Assembly: GCA_028719825.1 (NCBI GenBank)
Contig: JAQYLW010000032.1
Location: 1-32,876 of the forward strand
Direction of reading: 5' to 3'
From: Spirochaetales bacterium
Lineage (GTDB): Bacteria; Spirochaetota; Spirochaetia; Sphaerochaetales; Sphaerochaetaceae
DNA: 32,876 bases
Shown here: positions 22,916 to 25,698 of the stretch, piece by piece
Layout of the letters: each line of letters begins with the position of its first letter
Numbering within the stretch: position 1 is the first letter of the stretch
Notes under the pieces: generated by a model
Databases searched by the model: none
Told to the model about the DNA's origin: nothing
Seen by the model: only the letters and a program-made list of their open reading frames with translations
Translations under genes and position numbers: made by a program

Positions 22916-24847
22916 TTATTTCTTTTCATCGTCAACAACGGTGTATGAAGCATCCTCTGCCTCCTTAGGTCCGTTATCGGCATTGTTGTTACCTGCGTTT
23001 TCAGATGTCGATGAAGCATTCTTTTGCTGTTCTGCGGCAGCTGCCTTGTAAATCTCCTCGGCAAGCTTATAAGAAGCAGTTTGAAGCTCCTCGCTTCCCT
23101 TTTTGATCTCCTCTGCACTTGCACTTTGATTTTCAAGGATCTTTTTAAGTGCTTCCATCTTTTCCTCTATGGTCTTTTTATCCTCTGCGCTTACCTTGTC
23201 CCCGTATTCCTTTAAGGATTTTTCGGTTGCATATATAAGGTTGTCGGCTGTATTTCTTGCATTTACCTTTTCAGCCTGTGCCTTATCCTCTTCGGCATGC
23301 GCCTCGGCATCCTTAACCATTTTTTCTATCTCTTCCTTAGGAAGTCCGGATGAAGATTCAATCTTGATCTCCTGTTTTTTACCGGTTCCAAGATCCTTTG
23401 CGCTAACCTGAACAATACCGTTTGCATCGATATCAAACGTTACTTCAATCTGTGGCACGCCACGGGGAGCTGCAGGAATTCCAACAAGATCAAACTTTCC
23501 GAGAACCCTGTTTTGAGATGCTATTTCTCTTTCTCCCTGAAGAACAACTATCGATACGGCTGTTTGGTTGTCCGCAGCAGTTGAGAACACCTGACTTTTC
23601 TTTGTAGGAATAGTTGTGTTTCTTTCAATGAGTTTTGTATTGATACCACCCATTGTTTCTATTCCGAGTGAAAGCGGTGTAACGTCAAGAAGAAGAACGT
23701 CTTTAACGTCTCCCTTAAGGATTGAACCCTGAATACTTGCTCCTATTGCAACAACTTCATCGGGGTTAACTCCTTTATGAGGTTCCTTACCGAATATCTC
23801 TTTTACCTTAGCCTGAACTGCCGGTATTCTTGTACTTCCTCCTACAAGGATGACCTCATCTATGTCGCTTGCACTAAGTCCGGCATCCTTTAAGGCGTTC
23901 CTACAAGGAATGGCTGTTCTTTCTATAATATCCGATGTCAACTGATCGAACTTTGCCCTTGTAAGCGAAACCTGAAGGTGTTTAGGACCGCTCTGATCTG
24001 CCGTGATAAACGGAAGGTTAATCTCAGTAGTCATTGAAGATGAAAGCTCAATCTTTGCTTTTTCTGCGGCATCCTTCAGTCTTTGAAGAGCCATTTTATC
24101 GTTTCTGAGGTCTATGCCGTTGGCTCTTTTAAAGTCGTCAGCAAGCCACGAAATAAGAACAGCATCTATATCATCTCCTCCGAGATGCGTATCACCGTTT
24201 GTGCTTTTTACTTCAAACACTCCGTCTCCGAGTTCCAAAATTGAAATATCAAATGTTCCTCCGCCGAAGTCGTAAACTGCTATTTTTTCGCTCTTGTTTT
24301 TGTCCTTTCCAAGTCCATAAGCAAGGGCAGCAGCTGTGGGTTCGTTGACTATGCGCTTTACATCAAGGCCTGCAATTCTTCCTGCATCCTTTGTTGCCTG
24401 TCTTTGAGCATCGTTGAAGTATGCAGGTACGGTGATAACGGCCTCTGTTACGCTTTCACCAAGATAATCCTCGGCTGTTTTCTTCATCTTTTGAAGAATT
24501 GCAGCGCTTATCTCTTCGGGGCTGTATTCCTTGCCGCGGATATCAACTTTAACGGTTCCGTTTGTTCCTTTTACAACTTTATATGGGAGTTTTTTATCGT
24601 TTTCACTCATTTCTTCAAACTTGTTTCCCATAAATCGTTTAATAGAATAAATAGTGTTTTCCGGATTTGTTACAATCTGGTTTTTAGCACTCTGTCCTAC
24701 AAGGCGTTCTCCTTTGCCCGTAAATGCAACGATAGACGGCGTTGTTCTTCCACCCTCTGAGTTAGCTATAACAACAGGATCGTTTCCTTCCATAACAGCA
24801 ACACAGCTATTTGTTGTTCCAAGGTCAATTCCAATAATCTTTCCCAT
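22916..24847 (-). CDS. dnaK: Chaperone DnaK (Hsp70)
   Basis: [21 protein letters not shown]...[14 protein letters not shown]...; GGAGAT Shine-Dalgarno. Confidence 0.98.
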
Positions 24848-24913
24848 AATATTTATCTCCTTTTTTTTTATCTTCTTTATATGACACCGATTTTACCGTG
24901 TCACTTATATACT

Positions 24914-24930
24914 TGCAAATAGCGTGCCAA
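24914..24930 (-). promoter_or_regulatory. Candidate sigma-54 (-24/-12) promoter upstream of dnaK
   Basis: Minus strand TTGGCACG-CTAT-TTGCA, versus the general consensus YTGGCACGN4TTGCW. Confidence 0.65.
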
Positions 24931-24977
24931 TTTTACTTAATTTATTGTATTACAACAAGTTATCGCAAAAAAAAATA

Positions 24978-25003
24978 AAAGCCCTGCACATCGGCAGAGC
25001 TTT
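24978..25003 (-). terminator. grpE terminator
   Basis: Minus strand AAAGCTCTGC-cgatgt-GCAGGGCTTTTATTTTTTTT. Confidence 0.75.
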
Positions 25004-25027
25004 TTATACCCGTAATTTGGGTAATTT

Positions 25028-25642
25028 TTACTCATGTTTTCCCTTTAAGATCTTAACCTTTGCGGGGCGAATCACCTGAGAATGCAAGGCGTAACCCTTT
25101 TGCAGTGTAAGAACTACCTTGTCGTTTTCATCCTCTGTGCCTTCTTCACAAAGGCAGGCCTCGTGACGGGAGGGATCATAATCCTTGCCCACATCGTCTA
25201 TTTCTTCTATTCCCCATTTTTTAAGAACGGTGAGGAACGAAGTTTTGATAAGCTCTATTCCTTTTTTCACACTTTCGTCGGCAGATGATGAAAGCGCTGC
25301 ATCAAAACTGTCAAGACACGGGATGAGGTCCTTTATAATCTCTTTGTTTGCAAATGACACGGCATCCTCTTTGTCGCGCTGCATTCTTTTTTTTGTATTT
25401 TCACAATCTGCAACGGCACGGAGCATTTTGTCTTTATGACTGTTAACAAGGGCTTCAAGCTCTGTAATTCTATCCTTTAACTGTTCGGCTTCCGATTTTT
25501 CCTTAATGTCGCTTTCGTTTTGATTATCATTGTTGACTACCTGTTCCTCATTAGGTTTTTTCTTGTCTTTTTCCTTATCTTCCATATCCGCCTTTTTTTT
25601 AGAATTATGGTTTTGTTTATCGTCTGTATTGTTTTTGTTCAC
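25028..25642 (-). CDS. grpE: Nucleotide exchange factor GrpE
   Basis: RAVADCENTKKRMQRDKEDAVSFANKEIIKDLIPCLDSFDAAL...VGKDYDPSRHEA...VLTLQKGYALHSQVIRPAKVKI; GTG start with upstream GAGG. Confidence 0.95.
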   Translation of the reverse strand: MNKNNTDDKQNHNSKKKADMEDKEKDKKKPNEEQVVNNDNQNESDIKEKSEAEQLKDRITELEALVNSHKDKMLRAVADCENTKKRMQRDKEDAVSFANKEIIKDLIPCLDSFDAALSSSADESVKKGIELIKTSFLTVLKKWGIEEIDDVGKDYDPSRHEACLCEEGTEDENDKVVLTLQKGYALHSQVIRPAKVKILKGKHE

Positions 25643-25669: not shown

Positions 25670-25698
25670 ATGATAGAAAGATTATTTTTAAAAATCAA
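25670..25698 (-). promoter_or_regulatory. grpE promoter TTGATT-N17-TATCAT
   Basis: Minus-strand reading. Confidence 0.55.

Follow-up and report, generated by a model that had tools for sequence, protein, structure and literature searches.

A predicted sigma-54 promoter upstream of dnaK and its small candidate regulon in a Sphaerochaetaceae-type spirochaete

The dnaK gene of a Sphaerochaetaceae-type spirochaete, a relative of Sphaerochaeta with a small genome, is preceded by an exact match to the -24/-12 consensus of sigma-54 promoters, which very probably, as judged from comparative sequence data, is a functional promoter within a small regulon consisting of dnaK, clpB and a sigma factor gene. 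The site is located in a stretch of 32,876 nucleotides, hereafter called the window, which belongs to a genome of 1.15 Mb (G000, 94% complete). On the minus strand, the -24 element TGGCAC (24929-24924) and the -12 element TTGC (24918-24915) match the consensus TGGCAC-N5-TTGC at 10 of 10 positions (24929-24915), and the GG (24928-24927) and GC (24916-24915) dinucleotides are separated by 10 nt (GG-N10-GC). The initial annotation had described a near-perfect sigma-54 site at this position, 67 nt before the dnaK ATG; its sequence, spacing and distance, measured from the promoter GC to the ATG at 24847, are exactly as claimed. The treponeme context given there was wrong, since the source organism is not a member of Treponema. 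The features of the locus are compiled in Table 1.

Table 1. Annotated and predicted features of the grpE-dnaK-dnaJ locus in the window
Feature	Position	Strand	Evidence
Predicted sigma-54 promoter TTGGCACGCTATTTGCA	24930-24914	minus	exact consensus, matrix score, conservation in sister species G002
Predicted transcription start	24903..24904	minus	inferred from usual sigma-54 geometry, ~12 nt beyond the GC of the -12 element
Predicted 5'-terminal mRNA hairpin GUGACACGGUAAAAUCGGUGUCAU	24881..24904	minus	-10.2 kcal/mol, z -5.0
dnaK, 643 aa	22916..24847	minus	PF00012, E 6e-269
dnaJ, 380 aa	21687..22829	minus	DnaJ domains; probably cotranscribed with dnaK
grpE, 204 aa, GTG start, upstream unit	25028..25642	minus	PF01025, E 3e-40
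Intrinsic terminator between grpE and dnaK	24977..25004	minus	11-pair stem, then T-rich tail
Possible sigma-70-type grpE promoter TTGATT-17-TATCAT	25670..25698	minus	9/12 consensus matches

In the proposed mechanism, RpoN would start the transcription of dnaK, and probably also of dnaJ, separately from grpE. By its pattern, the terminator between grpE and dnaK is real; a strong terminator had been noted at 24978-25003 and was recovered with nearly the same limits, and a comparable G+C-rich hairpin is also found in the grpE-dnaK spacer of the sister species G002. No promoter-like or terminator-like site is present in the gap between dnaK and dnaJ, and dnaJ is probably cotranscribed with dnaK. 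A sigma-70-like promoter had also been assigned to grpE; the sequence is indeed present at 25698-25670, but with 9 of 12 matches it is not clearly above chance and is weak evidence. The predicted 5'-terminal hairpin of the dnaK mRNA is formed by the inverted repeat TGACAC-N10-GTGTCA (24881-24904, minus strand). This hairpin is not present in G002 and is thus not essential to the dnaK arrangement.

The dnaK site is the single exact occurrence of TGGCACN5TTGC in the window. Sequences with up to two mismatches are found 14 times in the window, with 20 expected by chance, and counting of a short pattern alone is therefore insufficient for a sigma-54 claim. A matrix was trained on 28 promoters of sigma genes, all of which derive from genera other than that of the window genome. 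With this matrix, the dnaK site reaches 23.6 bits and ranks first in the window (runner-up 10.6 bits), a score that was attained in none of 300 simulated windows. All 49 positions of the genome within one mismatch of the consensus were enumerated and their surroundings read; most of them lie inside long open frames. Three sites in the genome are exact, and they are located before the gene of a 284-aa sigma-70-family factor (29 nt), clpB (36 nt) and dnaK (67 nt). All other non-coding sites within one mismatch either lack the GG or are far from a gene, and none with intact GG and GC is found directly before a gene. It is extremely unlikely that the dnaK site is a chance match in a non-functional spacer, with dnaK being expressed by read-through from grpE or from another promoter. 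About one exact chance match is expected by estimate in a genome of 1.15 Mb, and the number of positions within one mismatch is at the level of the reversed-pattern control (49 versus 52); however, the exact matches immediately precede dnaK, clpB and the sigma gene, the sister species retains two of these sites, the third is conserved family-wide, and a terminator separates grpE from dnaK.

Conservation was assessed in 141 genomes of the family, the nearest of which with a dnaK gene is that of the sister species G002 (DnaK 85% identical). G002 keeps the site, TTGGCACGCTTTTTGCA, 45 nt before the dnaK ATG. The aligned block of both species, AAAATTGGCACGCTwTTTGCAwGTATATAAGT, and the ribosome-binding stretch stand out in a grpE-dnaK spacer that has otherwise mostly diverged. 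The GG and GC dinucleotides, whose conservation had been suggested as a check, are hence retained by the nearest relative within a flanking spacer that has changed, but they are lacking in other genera. Among 168 dnaK upstream regions, a 10/10 site is present in two (G000 and G002), and three more regions have 8-9/10 matches, all of them outside the family. Direct conservation is thus limited to two species and provides genus-level support. The third genome of the genus, G001 (2.0 Mb, 87% complete), yields no match to DnaK or ClpB at strict cut-offs and contains distant Hsp70-like proteins only, which could be due to the incompleteness of the genome; without a recognisable dnaK or clpB, G001 cannot confirm the conservation of the promoter. 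Sigma-54-like sequences are also seen upstream of dnaK in Bacteroidota (L106, 9/10; L098, 8/10), around 83 nt before the gene, consistent with reported promoters of Flavobacteriia.

The conserved block could also be read as a promoter of the sigma-70 family with TTGGCA as -35 and TATAAG or TATATA as -10 element, in which case the likeness to sigma-54 promoters would be coincidental. TTGGCA shares five of six positions with TTGACA, and a TATA-like stretch is located downstream in the dnaK promoters of both species as well as in the sigma and clpB promoters. However, the gap between TTGGCA and TATA varies from around 11 to 15 nt among the promoters of dnaK, the sigma gene and clpB, in all of which GG-N10-GC is invariant, and the -24/-12 elements of the sigma gene are kept family-wide with variable downstream sequence. 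A second candidate, TTGCAA-17-TAAAAT (9/12), in the dnaK spacer of G000 is lost in G002. This makes a sigma-70-type promoter very improbable, and a sigma-54 promoter remains the preferred reading.

In most other genera of the family, dnaK is preceded by a different element, TTGACGATT-N14-TANNTT, which is very conserved and nearly dnaK-specific, and which is absent before dnaK in the genus of the window genome. The element was considered as a general heat-shock or small-sigma promoter and rejected in this role, as it is rare genome-wide and its matches outside dnaK are mostly coding or unrelated, with tatD in two genomes; it may just as well be a strong housekeeping promoter. Within the element, TTGACG is followed by an ATT that is nearly dnaK-specific. 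The sigma-54 promoter gained at dnaK would stand in its place.

The regulon would be very small: besides dnaK and clpB, it would contain one gene, which encodes a group-2-like factor of the sigma-70 family. In G002, the clpB site persists with 9 of 10 matches, and no site was found close before clpB in any other genus examined. The open frame of ClpB has a length of around 715-730 aa in this genus (L262, L263) and starts around position 150 of the ClpB model; judged from the sequence, ClpB of this genus seems to lack the N-terminal domain. Short ClpB frames also occur in a few other genera with small genomes (L265, L271-L273). hslV was discarded as a shared target; a 10/10 site upstream of hslV-hslU is found only in G001 (L193), where it ranks second in its locus with the matrix.

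RNA polymerase containing sigma-54 (RpoN) stays closed until an activator hydrolyses ATP, and at dnaK it would wait in this state. The presence of rpoN and of enhancer-binding proteins had been named as checks of the sigma-54 reading, and the window genome contains both. A single intact rpoN gene encodes a protein of 448 aa (PF04552, E 6e-43; TIGR02395, 311 bits with a cut-off of 277), and two enhancer-binding proteins, both encoded on contig C14, each contain an AAA+ and a Fis-type HTH domain and carry the GA(F/Y)TGA loop, one as GAYTGA and the other as GAFTGA. One of the two activators additionally has a receiver domain, and its gene is located downstream of a histidine kinase gene; the other lacks a receiver, and its gene adjoins groES. 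Together with the GG and GC dinucleotides kept in the nearest relative, this machinery supports the original sigma-54 reading. The receiver-less activator is found beside groES in both species (L378:6358-7431 (+), L379:12346-13449 (+)), a place that is taken by the kinase-activator pair and dinG in other genera.

The 284-aa factor contains the sigma-70 regions 1.2, 2, 3 and 4 and resembles RpoS and RpoD; it stays below every equivalog cut-off, and by its best NCBIfam match (TIGR02394, 227 bits with a cut-off of 378.7) it does not qualify as an RpoS equivalog. A match to its gene is present in 138 of the 141 genomes of the family, but in a few of them it may be the large RpoD only. With the gene start in relatives set by alignment to the sigma factor of the window genome, a -24/-12 site with GG and GC precedes the gene at 30 of 31 loci, around 30-75 nt from the start. 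Upstream of this promoter, the palindrome GGGTCAN3TGACCC (up to three mismatches) is found at 25 of 28 loci of other genera versus 3.5% of shuffles, and TGTGCAN5TGCACA is located at exactly -83 in G000 and G002. The palindrome of the sigma gene is a conserved candidate enhancer. TGTGCAN5TGCACA was also considered as an operator of groES and rejected; in G002, groES lies elsewhere and lacks the palindrome, which the sigma promoter keeps. The kinase, activator, dinG, groES and sigma genes, in part named from their translations, form one locus in most genera examined. The promoter of the sigma gene would be ancestral and family-wide, while the dnaK and clpB promoters would have been gained within the reduced-genome genus.

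An upstream enhancer is usual for sigma-54 promoters but not strictly defining, as some activators work without one. In contrast to the sigma gene, no enhancer palindrome was found within 600 nt upstream of dnaK or clpB, and an activator would therefore have to bind a site of unrecognised type or function from solution. The motif GTAA-N3-TTAC, present in both species at the stop codon of grpE, was rejected as an enhancer because it is partly explained by coding constraint and is missing at clpB of G000.

The repressor HrcA (PF01628) was matched in none of the 141 family genomes versus 7 of 14 control genomes, and the usual repressor control is thus missing in the family. Since the window moreover contains no CIRCE element with up to three mismatches, in agreement with what had been noted before, dnaK does not have the features of an HrcA/CIRCE-controlled operon. 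The absence of HrcA fits activator-dependent control without proving it, and the comparison suggests that a lineage without HrcA may have placed core protein-folding genes under sigma-54.

Promoter activity, activator and inducing signal are what we infer from these data. An enhancer-binding ATPase would open the RpoN polymerase under stress, most plausibly of protein folding or heat; judged from the target genes, heat or misfolding has about an even chance of being the signal. Somewhat short of even stands a sigma-54-dependent promoter that responds to a nutritional or envelope signal via a two-component system of the AtoC/NtrC type, with DnaK and ClpB belonging to a general stress programme instead of a heat-shock response. 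The receiver-bearing activator and its kinase, which keep synteny with the sigma gene throughout the family and recall the RpoN-to-sigma cascade of Borrelia, speak for such a signal; the extra receiver-less activator beside groES in this genus and the chaperones among the direct targets speak against it, neither of them decisively. Returning to protein folding as the signal, it can tentatively be proposed that sigma-54 is the dedicated folding-stress factor of the genus: dnaK(-dnaJ), clpB and the second sigma gene would form its whole direct regulon, which the receiver-less activator beside groES would switch on, with HrcA absent from the family and the usual dnaK promoter of the family replaced.

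Sigma-54 control of dnaK had been called unusual, which holds, but precedents exist in Flavobacterium psychrophilum (PMC9723704) and in the hrcA-grpE-dnaK operon of Chlamydia (PMC8762339). The F. psychrophilum study ties -24/-12 promoters to mapped starts at DnaK, GrpE-DnaJ, GroES-GroEL, ClpB, Lon and HtpG (PMC9723704). As with the sigma-54 (SM4) promoters described there, sigma-54-type promoters are found here at dnaK and clpB as protein-quality-control targets; however, F. psychrophilum belongs to another phylum, its target set is broader and the accessible text notes no small sigma gene, while the targets here are only dnaK, clpB and the sigma gene (PMC9723704). Chlamydia trachomatis uses a tandem sigma66-sigma54 promoter at hrcA-grpE-dnaK and the AtoS-AtoC system (PMC8762339). 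A sigma-54 site at the Hsp70 operon, a reduced genome and an AtoC-like activator are common to both organisms, but Chlamydia possesses HrcA and the tandem sigma66 promoter, whereas the site found here is placed between grpE and dnaK in a genome without HrcA (PMC8762339). A survey of sigma-54 regulons found DnaK, GroEL and GrpE enriched among the predicted targets in Bacteroidota and Planctomycetota and names another protease cluster for Spirochaetia (PMC12316311). A parallel in regulatory logic among spirochaetes is the Hk2-Rrp2-RpoN-RpoS pathway of Borrelia burgdorferi, in which an enhancer-binding response regulator likewise acts through RpoN on a stress factor of the sigma-70 family. A cascade of this type, with a sigma-54 promoter at an alternative sigma gene and an activator, is indicated in the family by 30 of 31 loci and the kinase-activator synteny. 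The arrangement differs from that of Borrelia in that palindromes lie upstream of the sigma gene, which shows synteny with the kinase-activator pair, that dnaK and clpB would be direct targets as well, and that the encoded factor stays below the NCBIfam cut-off for an RpoS equivalog.

Within an incomplete coverage of the literature, no paper on Sphaerochaeta was found that deals with both heat shock and sigma factors. For heat-shock control in spirochaetes without HrcA or a classical RpoH, the wiring proposed here runs from an activator via RpoN to a second sigma factor, DnaK and ClpB; it would extend the RpoN-to-sigma logic of Borrelia to a further family of spirochaetes, in which a candidate enhancer is conserved. 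One genus with sigma-54 promoters at dnaK and clpB next to sister genera without them would represent a natural promoter swap. If the proposal is true, dnaK and clpB would be activator-dependent in this genus, in contrast to the usual leaky control by a repressor.
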